This document shows, in pieces, positions 326 through 11,497 of a DNA stretch of 11,497 nucleotides (positions within the stretch are counted from its first letter, which is position 1; each line of letters begins with the position of its first letter). The notes beneath the pieces were generated by a model. The model worked only from the letters and a program-made list of their open reading frames with translations. It was not told the origin of the DNA and ran no database searches. The DNA comes from Desulfobacteraceae bacterium (GTDB taxonomy: Bacteria > Desulfobacterota > Desulfobacteria > Desulfobacterales > Desulfobacteraceae), in the NCBI GenBank assembly GCA_011390435.1, contig JAABSK010000070.1:1-11497 (forward strand), given 5' to 3'. Both the position numbers and the translations under genes were made by a program.

Positions 326-748
326 ATGGCACAAAAAGATATTAAAATCGTAAGCTTCCTGTGCAACTGGTGCAGCTATGGTGCAGCAGATCTTGCAGGG
401 GTCAGCAGGCTTGAATATCCTGCTGATATTCGGGTGATCAGAATACCGTGTACCGGCAGGATGAGCCCGAAATTTATTTTGTCTGCATTAAGAGAAGGCG
501 CGGATGCCGTATGGGTATCCGGCTGACATCCTGGCGAATGTCATTACCTGGATGGTAATTATTATGCACGACGGAAATTTGCTCTCATGGGGAACCTTCT
601 CGAGCACATGGGGATTGAAAAAGACCGGGTTCATTTTTCCTGGATCTCGTCTGCCGAAGCCACCAAGTTTGTTGATGTGGTCAAGGAGATCTCTGAAAAA
701 GTAAGGGCAATCGGGCCGAATCAAAAACTTGTTAAGGACTATAGTTAA
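326..748 (+). CDS. mvhD: MvhD/FlxD-type iron-sulfur subunit, selenocysteine-containing (UGA at 524-526)
   Basis: MvhD passes electrons between an electron-input module (hydrogenase, formate dehydrogenase or Flx) and HdrA through a [2Fe-2S] cluster. The frame opens at ATG 326 behind a strong AAGGAG at 311-316. It meets TGA at 524-526 after 66 codons and then continues for 73 more sense codons to TAA 746-748, giving 140 residues, the normal MvhD length. The continuation is clearly MvhD: residue 67 (the TGA) is followed by HPGECHY, and in the family this position is a cysteine in GCHPGxCHY. Expected cluster ligands are C13, C16 (CNWC), C42 (PCTGRM), U67 and C72. The sequence therefore supports UGA decoded as selenocysteine, as known for VhuD of methanogens and for MvhD-like proteins of some sulfate reducers. 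A premature-stop pseudogene is unlikely because everything downstream is conserved. If Sec insertion fails, a 66-residue fragment results. Confidence 0.92.
524..559 (+). promoter_or_regulatory. Candidate bacterial SECIS element just downstream of the mvhD UGA
   Basis: Directly after the UGA lies a perfect 6-bp hairpin: ATTACC (543-548), loop TGGAT (549-553), GGTAAT (554-559). The loop starts 22 bases after the UGA and has guanines at its second and third positions. This fits the known bacterial SECIS arrangement (short G-bearing apical loop about 16-37 bases past the UGA). A second hairpin, TGACAT (524-529) with ATGTCA (538-543), would pair the UGA itself and shares only base 543 with the first. 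The element lies inside the coding sequence, as expected in bacteria. The stems are short and partly fixed by the HPGECHY codons, so the exact fold is inference. Confidence 0.6.
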
Positions 749-2795: not shown

Positions 2796-3641
2796 ATGCA
2801 AAACCCTTATATGCCGTATCCGGTTCGCATTGATGATATTGAAATTGCAACGGAAGATAAATCCCTGAAAACATTTAAATTCGTCTTTTTAAATCCGGAA
2901 GATGAAGAGAAGTTTTCCTACCAGGCCGGACAATTTGCAGAACTGTCCATTCCCGGTGTGGGTGAGATTCCCATCGGAATCGCTTCTTCTCCTGTTGAAA
3001 AAGGATTTGTCAAGTTTACTGTCTTCAGGGCCGGCGTTGTTACCAGTTACCTGCACAACATGAAAGTAGGCGATATCATGGGCCTCCGGGGGCCTCTGGG
3101 AAACTGGTATCCCTGGGACAAGCTGGAAAATAAAAACGTTGTAATTATCGGCGGTGGCTTTGCTTTTACCACGTTACGGTCTTCAATCGTTTACATGCTT
3201 GATCCGGCCAACCGGAAAAAATTCAAAAATATCGACGTGGTCTATGGTGCCAGATCACCTGGTATGCTTTTGTACCGCGAAGAGCTCTTTGAATGGGAAA
3301 AACGTGATGATATCAACATGCACATCACTGTAGACGGAACCGATGATCCCAACTGGCAGTACCATACCGGGTTTGTCCCGCAGGTGGTGGAAAAAAACGC
3401 ACCTAAGGCAACTGAAGATACCTATGCCATTATCTGTGGTCCGCCGATCATGATCAAGTTCACCATGCCCTCTTTAACCCAGCTGGGCTATCAGGAGAAC
3501 CAGATCATCATGTCACTGGAAAACAGAATGAAATGCGGCATTGGTATGTGTGGACGATGCAACATCGGCAAAGAACTTGTCTGCAAAGACGGACCTGTCT
3601 TCACGCTGGAGGAGCTGAATCAGACACCAAAAGAATATTAA
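2796..3641 (+). CDS. FlxA/AsrB/HydG-like FAD- and NAD(P)-binding 2Fe-2S subunit
   Basis: A 281-residue ferredoxin-NADP reductase-fold protein, likely the NAD(P)H entry point of the Hdr-Flx complex. Domains in order: FAD-binding barrel (about 8-105, with GQFAELSIPG at 45-54 and the isoalloxazine-site variant PIGIASS at 59-65), NAD(P)-binding domain (glycine-rich GGGFAFTTLRS at 119-129, ICGPP at 213-217), and a C-terminal [2Fe-2S] motif C247, C252, C255, C263. ATG 2796 is chosen because AAAGGAGG sits at 2784-2791, while the frame itself is open further upstream into the preceding gene. It is the last gene of the operon; no clear terminator follows before the dsrC promoter. The asrB name is possible on sequence alone, but the hdrA-mvhD context argues for FlxA. 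Confidence 0.82.
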   Translation: MQNPYMPYPVRIDDIEIATEDKSLKTFKFVFLNPEDEEKFSYQAGQFAELSIPGVGEIPIGIASSPVEKGFVKFTVFRAGVVTSYLHNMKVGDIMGLRGPLGNWYPWDKLENKNVVIIGGGFAFTTLRSSIVYMLDPANRKKFKNIDVVYGARSPGMLLYREELFEWEKRDDINMHITVDGTDDPNWQYHTGFVPQVVEKNAPKATEDTYAIICGPPIMIKFTMPSLTQLGYQENQIIMSLENRMKCGIGMCGRCNIGKELVCKDGPVFTLEELNQTPKEY

Positions 3642-3767: not shown

Positions 3768-4085
3768 ATGGCAACAGTCGATTTTAACGGGAAATCATTC
3801 GAAATAGATGAAGACGGGTTCCTTCTTGACTACAATACGTATTGTGAAGAGTGGGTTGATTATGTAAAGACCCAGGAAGGTATTGATGAACTGACAGATG
3901 AACATTGGACCCTGATCAAAGTGCTTCAGGATTATTATGAAAAAAATGGAATCGCTCCGATGGTTCGTGTTCTGTCAAAACTGACAAAATTCAAACTCAA
4001 ACACATCTATGAACTGTTCCCCTCAGGACCCGGCAAAGGCGCCTGTAAAATGGCCGGCCTTCCCAAACCGACTGGATGTGTATAA
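3768..4085 (+). CDS. dsrC: DsrC, sulfur-carrier protein of dissimilatory sulfite reduction
   Basis: DsrC is the small cytoplasmic partner of DsrAB sulfite reductase; it carries the reduced sulfur as a trisulfide between its two C-terminal cysteines, which the DsrMKJOP membrane complex is thought to reduce. This 105-residue protein has the expected length and both catalytic cysteines, C93 and C104, spaced by ten residues and ending GCV, which separates true DsrC from TusE/RspA-like relatives with one. An extra C26 is present. It starts at ATG 3768 behind AGGAGG (3753-3758). It is flanked by its own promoter and terminator, so it is a single-gene unit, as dsrC often is apart from dsrAB. Its place directly after an Hdr-Flx operon suggests that it could also be a substrate of that complex. 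Confidence 0.96.
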   Translation: MATVDFNGKSFEIDEDGFLLDYNTYCEEWVDYVKTQEGIDELTDEHWTLIKVLQDYYEKNGIAPMVRVLSKLTKFKLKHIYELFPSGPGKGACKMAGLPKPTGCV

Positions 4086-4182: not shown

Positions 4183-4638
4183 ATGGCTGTTATTGACCAG
4201 AAAAATAAAATGATCCTCAACCATATTCAGGTTGACTTTCCAATCCACCCAAGACCCTATCAGATCATTGCTGACCAGCTGGGCATGGAAGAAGATGAAC
4301 TGATCCTGCGGATCCGTCAAATGAAAAAAGAGATGCTGATCCGTCGAATTGGTGGAAATTTCAGCCCGGACCGCCTGGGATACCACTCGACGCTGTGTGC
4401 TGCCATGGTTCCTGAAGATAAAATTGAACTGTTCACCCGGACAGTCAATGCTTACAGCGGAGTGACCCATAACTACCAGCGGGATCATCAATTCAACATC
4501 TGGTTTACTTTTATCTCTCCCCAAAAAGAGAAGATCGAAGAGAATCTGAAAGCAATTTCCAAAAGCACCGGCGTACAGACCATACTGAACCTGCCTGCCA
4601 CCCGTGTATTTAAAATCAGTGCCAATTTCAAACTATGA
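4183..4638 (+). CDS. Siroheme decarboxylase subunit (AhbA/AhbB, Lrp/AsnC-like fold)
   Basis: Siroheme decarboxylase converts siroheme to 12,18-didecarboxysiroheme in the alternative heme pathway used by sulfate reducers and archaea; AhbA and AhbB are paralogues that form the enzyme and resemble NirD/L/G/H. The 151 residues show a winged-helix-like N-terminus (about 5-55, FPIHPRPYQIIADQLG) and an AsnC-type ligand-binding half with the conserved THNYQRDHQFNIWFT (95-109), where H96 matches the catalytic region of the family. The presence of this motif argues against an amino-acid-responsive Lrp regulator. I cannot decide between AhbA and AhbB, and the second subunit and AhbC/AhbD are not in the window. 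The start at ATG 4183 is 13 bases from AAAGGAG (4163-4169), longer than usual, but no closer in-frame start exists. The gene overlaps the next by four bases (ATGA). Confidence 0.83.
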   Translation: MAVIDQKNKMILNHIQVDFPIHPRPYQIIADQLGMEEDELILRIRQMKKEMLIRRIGGNFSPDRLGYHSTLCAAMVPEDKIELFTRTVNAYSGVTHNYQRDHQFNIWFTFISPQKEKIEENLKAISKSTGVQTILNLPATRVFKISANFKL

Positions 4639-5435
4639 CATCGATGAAAATCGCCTTTGTTGTTCAGAATGCCGTTGCTGGCGCGTATGAACAAAATCTG
4701 CAGTCCACACTGAAGTTTATTGCTGATGCAAAAAAACAAGGCGCTCAAATGGTTGTTTTTCCGGAAATGAATCTCACTGGATATCTCACAGGCCCGGAAA
4801 TCAAAACCATCTGCCGCGGTATCGACCCGGGTATCATCGATCTGTTTTCAACGCTCGCACACCATCAGCAGATCCTGATTCTGACCGGGCTGGCTGAAAA
4901 ATCAGACAATGCCATCTATGCGTCCCACCTGGTGTTTCATCAGGACAGGCGGTATGAGGTATACCGCAAGATCCATACAGCACCGTTTGAAAAAAAATAT
5001 TTTACGCCCGGAGACCAACAGGTGCTGTTTGATTGCAATGGGTTCCGGTTTGGGGTTCAGCTGTGCTATGATGCGCATTTTCCTGAACTGTCGCTTGCCA
5101 TGGCTCTGCAGAATGTGGATATCATTGTAATGCCGCATGCATCTCCCAGGGGAACGCCTCAGGAAAAATGCCAGTCATGGATGCGCCATCTGACTGCCAG
5201 GGCATTTGATAACGGAGTGTATATTGCAGCCTGTAATCAAACCGGAGACAATCTTGCGGGATTGAATTTTCCCGGTCTCTGCCTGGTGATCGGCCCGGAC
5301 GGCAATGCAGTATACCAGTCAACAGATCCTGCTGAAGGCATTCACATGGTTCAATTTGAAAAAGCCGTGCTGGAGCATGTCCGCTCCCATGAGATGCGGT
5401 ATTTTTTACCCCACCGGAGGACAGATCTGTTTTAA
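4635..5435 (+). CDS. Nitrilase-superfamily carbon-nitrogen hydrolase
   Basis: A 266-residue C-N hydrolase, which hydrolyses amides, carbamoyl compounds or nitriles through a Glu-Lys-Cys triad. The triad is visible: E44 in VFPEMNLTGY, K112 in YRKIHTAPF and C144 in LCYDAHFPEL; E119 in the PFEKKYFTPGD segment matches the second conserved glutamate. Length is typical for a single-domain member with no signal peptide. The start ATG 4635 overlaps the TGA of the siroheme decarboxylase gene (translational coupling); a second in-frame ATG at 4644 could be the real start. The substrate cannot be read from the sequence. Its tie to a heme-pathway gene is only positional. It ends 11 bases before the convergent mlaA. 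Confidence 0.85.
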   Translation: MTSMKIAFVVQNAVAGAYEQNLQSTLKFIADAKKQGAQMVVFPEMNLTGYLTGPEIKTICRGIDPGIIDLFSTLAHHQQILILTGLAEKSDNAIYASHLVFHQDRRYEVYRKIHTAPFEKKYFTPGDQQVLFDCNGFRFGVQLCYDAHFPELSLAMALQNVDIIVMPHASPRGTPQEKCQSWMRHLTARAFDNGVYIAACNQTGDNLAGLNFPGLCLVIGPDGNAVYQSTDPAEGIHMVQFEKAVLEHVRSHEMRYFLPHRRTDLF

Positions 5436-7547: not shown

Positions 7548-8333
7548 CTATACCAGAAAAAACGTAATAATATAATCAACTATCAGAATAAACACACAGG
7601 ACTGCACAACGGCATTGGTGGTTGTGGAACTGACGCCTTTTGCGCCAAACCCGGCGAACAGATGGGTATAGTAACCACGATAGCAGCAGATGGTGGTCAC
7701 GACCATTGAAAACGCAATCGCTTTATAAAACCCCCCAAGGACATCTGCGGTCACGACACTGGTCATCACCGTATCCATATACAGATAGCGGTTCATCCCC
7801 AACAGAACCGATCCGGAAAGGTATCCGCCAAAGATACCAAGAACATCAAACAAAGCTGTCAGAAACGGGAAACTGATCATTGCCGCAACCAGCCGCGGGG
7901 TAAAAAGGAACCGCACCGGATTGATGTACATGGTTTTCAGAGCATCAATCTGTTCAGACACCCGCATGACACCGATTTCAGCCGCCATGGCAGAACCTGC
8001 ACGTGCCGTGACCATGATGGCGGTAAACACCGGCCCCAGTTCGCGGACCAGCGTCAATGAAACCGCTGAGCCCAGAGCAGCTTCAGATCCGAATTTCACC
8101 AGGGAATAGTACCCTTGCAGCCCCAGAACCATTCCGGTAAATAATCCGGTCAGGGCAATCACAATGATGGATTTACTGCCGATGAACCGTATTTGTTCAA
8201 GAATTTTCCGATATTGAACAGGCCTGGTAAAGACATTGCTGATCCCGATTAAAAAAAACAGGGCAAAGCGTCCGACAGACTCGATCTGCTGGATGGTCTT
8301 GCGGCCGATTTTTTCTACAAATATATTTTGCAT
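7548..8333 (-). CDS. mlaE: MlaE, permease subunit of the Mla phospholipid transporter
   Basis: The inner-membrane permease that pairs with MlaF and MlaD. The 261 residues contain the family core LVRELGPVFTAIMVTARAG, then AAEIGVMRVSEQIDAL with the EQIDAL coupling motif, and about five hydrophobic membrane segments, the last at the very C-terminus (FILIVDYIITFFLV). The N-terminal segment (VEKIGRKTIQQIESVG) is an amphipathic interfacial helix typical of MlaE. It is the first gene of the operon and is read divergently from the ribbon-helix-helix gene. Only a weak ribosome site (ACAGG) precedes the ATG; the predicted promoter lies very close to it. Confidence 0.94.
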   Translation of the reverse strand: MQNIFVEKIGRKTIQQIESVGRFALFFLIGISNVFTRPVQYRKILEQIRFIGSKSIIVIALTGLFTGMVLGLQGYYSLVKFGSEAALGSAVSLTLVRELGPVFTAIMVTARAGSAMAAEIGVMRVSEQIDALKTMYINPVRFLFTPRLVAAMISFPFLTALFDVLGIFGGYLSGSVLLGMNRYLYMDTVMTSVVTADVLGGFYKAIAFSMVVTTICCYRGYYTHLFAGFGAKGVSSTTTNAVVQSCVFILIVDYIITFFLV

Positions 8334-8341
8334 AGCCTGTT

Positions 8342-8370
8342 TATATATCTGTTATACCGGCAAATTGCAA
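8342..8370 (-). promoter_or_regulatory. Possible promoter of the mlaEFDA operon
   Basis: Read on the minus strand, TTGCAA (8365-8370) lies 17 bases ahead of TATATA (8342-8347). Transcription would begin about 8335, leaving almost no leader before the mlaE ATG. An alternative -10 box TATAAC lies at 8351-8356, but its -35 is poor. The region is AT-rich, so chance matches are likely. Confidence 0.35.
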
Positions 8371-8429
8371 CTGTTTGTACATGTTTTTGGGCTGGACACT
8401 TCACCGTTAAAAAAAGCGTGTGAAAAAAA

Positions 8430-8458
8430 TTGACACGTACTTAAAAAACGGCTACGTA
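8430..8458 (+). promoter_or_regulatory. Possible promoter of the ribbon-helix-helix/activase unit, with ACGTA repeats
   Basis: A perfect -35 TTGACA (8430-8435) is followed after 17 bases by TACGTA (8453-8458), a poor -10. The pentamer ACGTA occurs at 8435-8439 and again at 8454-8458, 19 bases apart, about two helical turns, at the two promoter elements. This could be an operator for the ribbon-helix-helix protein encoded just downstream (inference). Confidence 0.35.
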
Positions 8459-8501
8459 TAGCAATGTTCAACCCGGATCCATTTAAAGAAGGAATACACC
8501 A

Positions 8502-8981
8502 ATGGCGCAAAAAATAACCCTCAGCATCCCGGATATGCTGCATGAAAAATTAAAAGAGTGGCGCTCGTCATTTAATTTTTCAAAAATGTTTCAGGAAGCT
8601 GTCACTGATGCCATACAGAAAAAGGAAGAATTTCAAAAACGGTTTTCCCAGGAGCTTGATCTTTCTGAAGTGATTCATCGTCTTAAACAGGAAAAACTGG
8701 CCTGGGAGAAAAAATTTTATACTGCAGGAAAAGCAGAAGGGATAAAATGGGCGACATCTGCACACTATGCCGACCTTTTGTATGTCCTGCATCACAGCGG
8801 CCAATACCAGCTGACCTCTGATCCCAGACTGATGCCGTATTTTGAACAGGCCTATCAAACATCCGGTCTTGAGAGCTATCGCAGCTCTGAATCTCTGTTC
8901 CATGAACAGATGTTCATGGATGGCTGGTTTAAAGGGGTAAATGATTTCTGGAACCAGATAAAAGGAAAAATCGAATCATGA
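8502..8981 (+). CDS. Ribbon-helix-helix protein with conserved C-terminal domain of unknown function
   Basis: A 159-residue protein. Residues 3-40 (KITLSIPDMLHEKLKEW, then FSKMFQEAVTDAI) have the strand-helix-helix pattern of CopG/Arc-type DNA-binding dimers. A charged, helical stretch follows (40-72, coiled-coil-like), then YTAGKAEGIKWA (72-83) and a helical C-terminal part ending WFKGVNDFWNQIKG. I do not recognise a characterised protein. The start ATG 8502 has AAGAAGGA at 8486-8493. Its TGA overlaps the ATG of the activase gene, so the two are coupled and it may regulate that unit. It is not followed by a toxin gene, so an antitoxin role is not supported by the neighbour. Confidence 0.7.
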   Translation: MAQKITLSIPDMLHEKLKEWRSSFNFSKMFQEAVTDAIQKKEEFQKRFSQELDLSEVIHRLKQEKLAWEKKFYTAGKAEGIKWATSAHYADLLYVLHHSGQYQLTSDPRLMPYFEQAYQTSGLESYRSSESLFHEQMFMDGWFKGVNDFWNQIKGKIES

Positions 8982-11497
8982 CATCCACCTCACCAATTCT
9001 GGGTATCGACATTGGTTCAGTATGCATCCACATCGCACTGATCGATTCAGACACCCGCATTCTTCACACTGCTGCTGATTATCACCACGGAGAGATCCGG
9101 CAATGCCTTGAAAGACTTCTTGACCACACAGCCATCGATCTTGCTGCAATTCATCAGGTGGCCAAAACCAGCCAGACCCCATCATCGGTTCACGCAGACC
9201 AGGCCTATGACGGACAATTGTGCCGGATACGGGCAGCCCGGCTGCTTCATCAGCAGTTTCATGCAATTTTACATATCGGCGGTGAAAATTTTTCTTTAAG
9301 CCGGTTTGACGACTCCCTGACCTATCTGGGGGCCAAGCACAATACATCATGCGCAGCTGGAACAGGCAGTTTTCTGGATCAGCAGGCCAGACGGCTCAAC
9401 CTTTCAGGTGGTTCTGAAGAATTGAGCAAAATGGCCCTTGCCAATACCCGGAAACGACCGGATATCGCCACCCGGTGCGCGGTTTTTGCAAAAACCGACC
9501 TGATTCATGCCCAACAGGAAGGGTTTGATGTCCATCAGATCTGCGACGGCCTCTGCTACGGACTTGCCAAAAATATCGCCAACACCCTTTTCAAACATGA
9601 AAATATCGGATCAAAAATCATATTCTGTGGCGGCGTTGCTGCCAATGCCAGCGTTCAACATCACCTGGAAACCCTTACTGGATATGAATTTGTCATTGAT
9701 GAACATGCCAACTTCTACGGCGCTGTCGGCGCGGCACTCTGTCATTTTGAAGCACTCCGGAACCATGTGCCGTCAAAAGCACCAAAACCCCTTGAACATC
9801 TGGATGATCTGTTTGTCGCTTCCCAGAACGAAACCGTCCTGAGCTATCCTGAACTGACACTGAAATACTCGGCCTATCCGGATTTCAACTGTTTTTCTTC
9901 CTACATGTTCGAATCAGTTGAAGCGGATATTTACCAGGACCCTTTCCGGATACGCACCAAAGCCGCTTACCTGGGCATGGATGTGGGATCCACCAGTACC
10001 AAAAGCATATTGATCGATGAAACAGGCCAGCCCATTGCCGGTTTCTATACCAAAACCGCTTCTCAACCGGTGAGGGCAGTTCAGCAAATTTTAAAGGCTT
10101 ATGATCACTTTTTCACAAAATACAGCCTGGCCATCACCATCAAAGGATGCGGCACCACAGGCTCTGGCCGCAGAATCAGTGGAAAAATCCTCGAGGCGGA
10201 TATTGAACCCGATGAAATCACCGCCCATGCCACTGCAGCATCGAATCTGAATCAAAATGTGGACACGATCATCGAAATCGGCGGTCAGGATGCCAAATTT
10301 ACCCTGTTGAAAAACGGAATTGTTACTGCCTCCACCATGAATTCGGTCTGTGCGGCTGGCACTGGAAGTTTTATCGAAGAACAGGCTTTGAAACTGGAAT
10401 GTCCCTTGTCTGAATATTCAAGCAGGACCGAAGGGGTCAGATCTCCTGTGGCCAGTGATCGATGTACGGTTTTTATGGAACGGGATATCAATTACTATCT
10501 TGCACAGGGATATAAAAAAAATGAAATTTTAGCATCTGTCCTGCACTCTGTCCGGGACAATTACCTGACCAAGGTTGCCAATATCGCCCAGATCGGCGAG
10601 TGCATCCTTTTTCAAGGTGCCACCGCCAAAAACAAGGCACTGGTGGCGGCATTTGAACAAAAACTGAACAAACCCATCCATGTCTCAAAATACTGCCATC
10701 TTACCGGCGCGCTGGGCGTGGCCCTCCTGGTAAAAGAAAAAAATCTGGCTGTTTCAGCCTTCCGGGGATTTGATCTCTGGCAGCAGCCCATCCCGGTTCG
10801 ACAGGAAGTCTGTCATCTATGCACCAACAACTGCAAAATCACCCTTGCCGATATTTCCGGCCAGACCCTGGCATATGGATTTTTATGCGGCAGGGATTAT
10901 CATACCCAGAAACGGGCAACACAGAATCATGCATACGACCTGTTCAAACGCAGAAAAATGGCCATGCCGAAAAAAGAAGCCACCCCAGTCGAACACGCTT
11001 TTTCCATTGGCATTCCTGCCGGACTTCATCTGTTTGAAGATACAGATTTCTGGGTCTGTTTTTTTGAAAAACTCGGCATAAAAACCATTACCAGTGAATC
11101 GCTCAAACATCCGGTACGAAAGGGCAAAATCAAAGCCGGGGCTGAATTCTGCGCTCCGGTGGTTGCCATGCACGGCCATGTCCAGTATCTGCTGGAAAAG
11201 GCAGATTATGTTTTCCTGCCCTTTTACTTTGAAGAGAAACAAACACAAAAAGACCGGCGACGTCAGGACTGCTATTATACACAATTCGCCCCCTCAGTCA
11301 TTGCCTGTCTTTCCGGAATCGACCAGAACCGACTGATCTCACCGATCGTCAAATATTTGTATACAAATTTTCATACCAAGCTTGAGTTGTACAAATCCCT
11401 GAAAAAAATATCATCGGATTTTATGTTTTCATTCATGGATATTGCTTCAGCCTATGAAGCTGCCCTTGAATTTCAGCAGACCTGTAAAACTTCATTA
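8978..11497 (+). CDS. Tandem-domain acyl-CoA dehydratase activase (BcrAD/BadFG/HgdC family, with DUF2229), 3' truncated by window edge
   Basis: Activases of this family use ATP and a [4Fe-4S] cluster to inject low-potential electrons into 2-hydroxyacyl-CoA dehydratases or benzoyl-CoA reductase-like enzymes. The frame is open from ATG 8978 to the right edge, 840 codons, with no stop. Two ASKHA ATPase domains follow each other. The first (1-~270) has GIDIGS (9-14), a changed IGGENF (100-105), CAAGTGSF with C125 and RCAVFAKTD with C167. The second (~330-585) is canonical: GMDVGSTSTK (333-342), GCGTTGSGR (390-398), IGGQDAKF (434-441), CAAGTGSF with C458, RCTVFMERD with C496. After that come C612, C615, C619 (CHLCTNNC) and a DUF2229 region from about residue 677 (IGIPAGLHLF, AGAEFCAPVVAMHGH). 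Family members of this layout run to roughly 1400 residues, so a substantial part lies beyond the window. The target enzyme is not visible. Confidence 0.9.
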   Translation, partial: MTSTSPILGIDIGSVCIHIALIDSDTRILHTAADYHHGEIRQCLERLLDHTAIDLAAIHQVAKTSQTPSSVHADQAYDGQLCRIRAARLLHQQFHAILHIGGENFSLSRFDDSLTYLGAKHNTSCAAGTGSFLDQQARRLNLSGGSEELSKMALANTRKRPDIATRCAVFAKTDLIHAQQEGFDVHQICDGLCYGLAKNIANTLFKHENIGSKIIFCGGVAANASVQHHLETLTGYEFVIDEHANFYGAVGAALCHFEALRNHVPSKAPKPLEHLDDLFVASQNETVLSYPELTLKYSAYPDFNCFSSYMFESVEADIYQDPFRIRTKAAYLGMDVGSTSTKSILIDETGQPIAGFYTKTASQPVRAVQQILKAYDHFFTKYSLAITIKGCGTTGSGRRISGKILEADIEPDEITAHATAASNLNQNVDTIIEIGGQDAKFTLLKNGIVTASTMNSVCAAGTGSFIEEQALKLECPLSEYSSRTEGVRSPVASDRCTVFMERDINYYLAQGYKKNEILASVLHSVRDNYLTKVANIAQIGECILFQGATAKNKALVAAFEQKLNKPIHVSKYCHLTGALGVALLVKEKNLAVSAFRGFDLWQQPIPVRQEVCHLCTNNCKITLADISGQTLAYGFLCGRDYHTQKRATQNHAYDLFKRRKMAMPKKEATPVEHAFSIGIPAGLHLFEDTDFWVCFFEKLGIKTITSESLKHPVRKGKIKAGAEFCAPVVAMHGHVQYLLEKADYVFLPFYFEEKQTQKDRRRQDCYYTQFAPSVIACLSGIDQNRLISPIVKYLYTNFHTKLELYKSLKKISSDFMFSFMDIASAYEAALEFQQTCKTSL

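Follow-up and report, generated by a model that had tools for sequence, protein, structure and literature searches.

An in-frame UGA at a conserved cysteine codon of an flxD (mvhD-type) gene from Desulfobacteraceae is predicted to encode selenocysteine

Introduction

A FlxABCD-HdrABC system with DsrC has reportedly been described in Desulfovibrio vulgaris, in studies said to be those of Ramos (2015) and Ferreira (2023). Proteins of the MvhD type are presented, in the accessible text of two papers, as passing electrons from hydrogenase to the flavin of HdrA (PMC12350162, PMC6019823). As far as the accessible text of the respective papers goes, 19 FrhD selenoproteins were counted in bacteria in 2006, with Deltaproteobacteria named (PMC1794560); in 2009, selenocysteine (Sec)-containing mvhD1, 2, 3 and 5 were reported in Desulfobacterium autotrophicum HRM2, as was, for that species, an HdrL1-MvhD-DsrA-DsrB-DsrC cluster (PMC2702500); and Sec in the MvhD family was reported again in 2016, in Desulfococcus multivorans (PMC5109826), and in 2021, in a marine deltaproteobacterial metagenome (PMC8318568). 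A sequence-only reading of the locus analysed here had named Sec as known both in VhuD of methanogens and in some sulfate reducers, and the accessible parts of the literature agree with it (PMC1794560, PMC2702500, PMC2933860).

The gene presented in this work lies in a stretch of 11,497 nucleotides from a Desulfobacteraceae bacterium. We refer to this whole stretch as the window; all of its features whose strand is of relevance here are on the forward strand.

Results

The flxD frame and its neighbours

The mvhD-type gene (flxD) occupies nucleotides 326–748. Its frame, read directly, is preceded by a Shine-Dalgarno-like AAGGAG (311–316), opens with ATG (326–328), runs for 66 sense codons up to nucleotide 523, meets TGA at 524–526 and continues for 73 sense codons (527–745) to a TAA (746–748). 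When the TGA is read as a residue, the resulting 140-residue product covers positions 1–123 of the 123 of the profile PF02662 (FlpD/MvhD), at 179.1 bits (E 4e-53; cut-off, 22.3). Standard translation of the locus yields only a 66-residue ORF. Both the 66-plus-73-codon MvhD frame of the sequence-only reading and its expectation that naive annotation would give a broken gene are thus borne out.

The TGA stands at codon 67, for the first Cys of the motif GCHPGECHY, where the earlier reading had also located it. Six solved MvhD-type chains matched the product; the four for which alignments are shown have a Cys at the position of residue 67 and share Cys at positions 13, 16, 42, 67 and 72. No ligand assignment for Cys 67 was found in the accessible text of the literature on solved MvhD structures, and the [2Fe-2S] cluster of the window FlxD is predicted by analogy, the cluster literature dealing with other members of the MvhD family. 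Residue 67 may be a ligand of this cluster or a neighbour of one, as the earlier reading proposed.

Upstream of flxD, the window starts inside hdrA, of which the C-terminal 102 residues with two 4Fe-4S motifs remain (3–311). Downstream follow genes for an FlxC-like iron-sulfur protein of 315 residues (762–1709), an FlxB-like, AsrA/HydB-like 4Fe-4S dicluster protein (PF17179; 1726–2778), an FlxA-like, AsrB/HydG-like FAD/NAD-binding protein (2796–3641) and DsrC (3768–4085), which retains both C-terminal cysteines (CKMAGLPKPTGCV) and is a possible redox partner. By NCBIfam, the FlxB and FlxA proteins are AsrA- and AsrB-like, below the cut-offs of those families. In a comparison of domains alone, the make-up of these genes is consistent with that expected of an Flx set. 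Further downstream of dsrC (4183–5435), an AhbA-like siroheme decarboxylase gene (NF040708, over cut-off) overlaps a carbon-nitrogen hydrolase gene by ATGA, and both are found in many related loci as well. The window closes within a long protein that contains two acyl-CoA dehydratase activase (CoA_E_activ) stretches (8978–11497).

A single scan of a genome collection, with the adjoining flxC as the query, gave 34 related loci, among which hdrA, flxD, flxC, flxB and flxA occur together repeatedly. In one of them the flxA match comes in two pieces (L003:8037-8886; 8037–8531 and 8533–8886), possibly by frameshift or assembly error. By tblastn (threshold 1e-10, 40% coverage), dsrC is next to flxA in 21 of the 34. 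The stretch ends too soon in eight more (L007, L008, L013, L016, L022, L023, L029, L033), and L030 is broken within flxB. In the remaining four (L021, L028, L031, L032), no dsrC was detected beside flxA though at least 1.2 kb follows, which argues against a fixed Flx-DsrC pairing.

No CCG (HdrB) domain was detected among the eight window proteins scanned, the window beginning inside hdrA. In two related loci, L088 and L002, hdrA is preceded by genes of opposite orientation, so that hdrBC is not part of the cluster there; CCG proteins are present in all 12 relatives' genomes searched, with 16 to 50 matches per genome. The HdrA beside flxD carries an in-frame TGA of its own, at NDCAM-TGA, in 22 of the 34 loci (e.g., L024:1000-5448). 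In another six (L001, L004, L009, L017, L018, L025), HdrA starts NuoG-like and is preceded by a NuoF-like gene; this variant gave no match to the NDCAM-TGA site, and its FlxD keeps the TGA. The stretch does not show the site in the other six.

Recurrence of the UGA and selection beyond it

Alignment of residue 67 with MvhD homologues, proposed as a check in the earlier reading, was carried out on the 32 of 34 loci in which flxD adjoins flxC (L011 and L034 begin downstream of flxD). Codon 67 is TGA in 31 of them and TGT in one, a recurrence that excludes chance. The exception (L031:5587-5979) is the only Cys67 FlxD of the set; its adjacent HdrA carries TGA, and a second, distant mvhD on the same contig has TGA at the same place.

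The same codon is used well beyond these loci. Every TGA-bearing MvhD listed for L041–L090 has TGA at codon 67, including paralogues of about 50% identity, and wherever a sequence with only one TGA was retrieved it lies at that codon. MvhD relatives were found in 59 of 59 genomes of the family to which G015 belongs, reaching at least 13 in one genome among the matches listed, and the paralogues among those matches have no TGA, one or two. Double-TGA forms (codons 16 and 67) come from nine loci, L071–L079, with eight distinct segments (e.g., L078:4771-5145), and the codon-16 site has a strong hairpin of its own, with the loop TGGCT in all eight. Two loci contain tandem HdrA-MvhD pairs, L083 (3202–3615 and 8728–9138) and L084 (3904–4314 and 9425–9835); in both, the upstream MvhD has Cys67 and stands with its HdrA directly upstream of HdrA(TGA)-FlxD(TGA)-FlxC-FlxB. 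Such tandem pairs possibly constitute a selenium-dependent switch.

Substitution rates were compared in the 17 relatives from the flxC scan that align over the full length without gaps and are at least 78% identical. Values of dN range from 0.033 to 0.107 before the UGA and from 0.036 to 0.101 after it; dS, where defined, ranges from 1.11 to 2.20 before and from 0.83 to 2.77 after, being saturated and hence undefined in five comparisons before the TGA and in one after. Purifying selection on the second part of the gene equals that on the first, and this equality of constraint makes it most likely that both parts are translated and selected alike. This bears on the possibility that a nonsense mutation has turned flxD into a pseudogene, or that translation proceeds only to residue 66. 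Such an origin would agree with the 66-residue ORF of standard translation; set against the equal constraint in these 17 relatives, and against a TGA common to many genomes and to paralogues with about half of their residues identical, it is very unlikely.

A candidate recoding hairpin

Downstream of the UGA we located a candidate apical hairpin of a bacterial SECIS (bSECIS) at 543–559, consisting of ATTACC (543–548), the loop TGGAT (549–553) and GGTAAT (554–559). The loop begins 22 nt after the TGA and has G at its second position. According to the accessible text of PMC13188914, a bacterial SECIS is a small stem-loop whose first or second loop nucleotide is G and whose loop begins 16–37 nt past the UGA; hairpin 543–559 agrees with this model in the loop G and in the distance.

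The hairpin was compared among 108 distinct 60-nt segments, identical ones from different genomes being counted once. They were drawn from the 34 loci of the flxC scan, 30 loci of a paralogue search, 60 stretches chosen by hand among the matches listed and two more; matches were kept only if they covered codons 16 and 67 and extended over at least 60 nt from codon 67 onwards. The exact stem ATTACC/GGTAAT is present in 82 of 82 TGA segments, with nine forms of the loop, and in none of 26 Cys segments (Fisher's test, p 1.4e-25, kinship of the sequences ignored). TGA genes use only TAC at residue 74, GGT at 77 and AAT at 78, whereas Cys genes use several synonymous codons at these positions. Of 200,000 random synonymous recodings at the codon usage of the window, 3,847 had the exact stem and 13,797 had six pairs of any standard kind. 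The 12 stem letters are invariant in the 82 TGA segments, which leaves no covariation to count; the comparison with Cys genes served in its place. The signature ATTACC-(TGnnn or AGnnn)-GGTAAT, 22 nt after the TGA, separates Sec from Cys mvhD in the 108 segments, and the stem signature is useful for the annotation of mvhD copies.

Folding gave a more differentiated picture. RNAalifold returns the same hairpin on the 82 TGA segments, and only a two-pair stem located elsewhere on 25 of the 26 Cys segments (the L132 row, which aligns with an insertion, was excluded). The free energy of the window hairpin is unremarkable (z between -1.29 and 0.06), and neither the window nor nucleotides 470–640 matched any Rfam family. 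When the 42 nt after the UGA are folded, the hairpin is the lowest-energy structure in 46 of 82 TGA segments, i.e., in 21 of 53 of Flx type, 17 of 21 others and 8 of 8 double-Sec ones, the Flx and other groups being set by identity alone (cut-offs of 65% and 60%) and not by gene-by-gene context. For the 42-nt segment of the window itself, the hairpin loses to a longer stem that starts next to the UGA; in three of the four window stretches folded, those including the UGA, hairpin 543–559 is part of the best fold. The fold therefore depends on the ends chosen. When the first 12 nt are omitted, the hairpin appears in 81 of the 82 TGA segments and in none of the 26 Cys segments; in the cell, these nucleotides might be covered by the ribosome occupying the UGA.

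The longer stem right after the UGA was itself considered as a SECIS and rejected. Its loop begins only some 11 nt past the UGA and lacks G at positions 1 and 2; the stem, though strong in L041, for example (-16.4 kcal/mol), has its pairing disrupted in many TGA genes.

Selenocysteine machinery

With family cut-offs, the sel genes were searched in 20 hand-picked genomes among those represented by the 34 loci, and in 14 control genomes. Matches over cut-off were obtained for selA in 20 of 20 relatives' genomes (controls, 1 of 14), and in 18 of 20 each for selC (G013 and G019 below; controls, 5 of 14), selB (G014 and G018 below; controls, 2 of 14) and selD (G014 and G018 below; controls, 2 of 14). 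Each of the 20 has selB and/or selC over cut-off. The cut-off counts are preferred because the looser tallies at E 0.001, although giving 20 of 20 for selC and selB, are uninformative, all 14 controls matching too. Among the selD matches listed, 21 of 22 themselves contain an in-frame TGA.

These data bear on the identity of the inserted residue, which under a changed genetic code, or by leaky near-cognate read-through, could be one other than Sec. UGA continues to act as a normal stop within the window, terminating 3 of the 13 genes checked; moreover, codon 67 stands in for a conserved Cys with a SECIS-like hairpin downstream, and the relatives' genomes hold sel genes. Taken with these observations, a residue different from Sec has very little probability. 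The least probable explanation of all, that TGC or TGT was misread as TGA in sequencing or assembly, needs only a single base but would have to hold for the same codon in 31 of 32 separately assembled loci, and for a hairpin that accompanies TGA and is missing from the Cys genes examined.

Discussion

Judging from sequence comparison, Sec is by far the best reading of codon 67, as the sequence-only reading had proposed: recurrence of the UGA, the hairpin, purifying selection past the UGA and sel genes in the relatives' genomes all support it. The gene that standard annotation splits is nearly certain to represent a conserved selenoprotein. More specifically, we are highly confident that it would encode an MvhD-type subunit (FlxD) with SelB-directed Sec at residue 67, linking an Flx module to HdrA. 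In the mechanism that we propose, SelB with Sec-tRNA would be recruited by the small hairpin at 543–559, and insertion of Sec at residue 67 would give a [2Fe-2S] protein of 140 residues; when selenium is lacking, a 66-residue fragment would result. FlxA would oxidise NAD(P)H, and the electrons would pass through FlxB and FlxC to the putative [2Fe-2S] cluster of FlxD, which would hand them on to the HdrA flavin; DsrC may act as disulfide partner.

A broader reading would join these elements into a selenium-tuned NADH-Flx-HdrA complex of the Desulfobacteraceae, without dedicated HdrB/HdrC and often feeding DsrC, with Sec at NDCAMU of HdrA and at GUHPGEC of FlxD, and with the adjacent Cys MvhD and HdrA copy of some relatives serving as a selenium-controlled switch similar to Vhu/Vhc. 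We consider it unlikely as a whole and put it forward tentatively, the more so since four loci lack dsrC next to flxA.

With regard to known systems, the D. vulgaris FlxABCD-HdrABC is, in the accessible text of PMC10553843 and PMC6687939, similar to the window in its NADH-oxidising Flx module, its HdrA and DsrC as the proposed disulfide partner. It differs in HdrB, which is found neither among the eight window proteins nor directly upstream in two related loci. In the accessible text of these two accounts Sec in FlxD is not mentioned, and in that of PMC6687939 Sec is named only in a formate dehydrogenase; a Sec-FlxD under that name was not found in the literature searched, mostly outside subscription journals.

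VhuD of Methanococcus, to go by the accessible text on it (PMC2933860, PMC11097638, PMC6019823), resembles the window FlxD as a Sec-containing electron connector to HdrA, and its Cys isoforms take over when selenium is short. Unlike in the window, its partners are described there as hydrogenase or formate dehydrogenase, and archaeal SECIS elements, in the available part of PMC13188914, are mostly placed in the 3′-UTR, whereas the hairpin of the window follows the UGA. The FrhD/MvhD selenoproteins described in PMC1794560 have, in the text available, Sec in the same family in sulfate reducers and relatives, and some of the clusters place FrhD/MvhD beside a Sec-HdrA. Those clusters hold hydrogenase subunits (hdrA-frhD-frhG-frhA), where the window has FlxC, FlxB and FlxA instead.

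Another close system is found in the genome G032, presumed to be that of D. autotrophicum HRM2. Its order HdrL (TGA at NDCAM)-MvhD (TGA67)-FlxC-FlxB-FlxA-DsrC-AhbA-nitrilase (L131) is that of the window, and an MvhD of the same genome (L112) is 83% identical to that of the window and has the same hairpin stem. The HdrL of G032 contains GltD and has its own TGA, whereas the window HdrA is cut by the edge. In L131, FlxB and FlxA occupy the positions beside HdrL that the 2009 paper assigns to dsrA and dsrB. Since the window proteins in the corresponding places are AsrA-/AsrB-like by NCBIfam, we suspect that the dsrA and dsrB labels given in 2009 to the genes beside HdrL1 may denote FlxB and FlxA. 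The sequence-only reading had stressed that the Sec-MvhD sits in an Flx-type complex rather than in a hydrogenase; FlxC, FlxB and FlxA do adjoin flxD, but the setting is less distinctive than this suggests, because the 2009 paper reports Sec-containing mvhD and the HdrL1 cluster and G032 has the same gene order with TGA in both HdrL and MvhD. A non-hydrogenase setting of Sec-MvhD is thus probably not new either. Sec in the MvhD family is already in print, and flxD of the window is a further instance of it.
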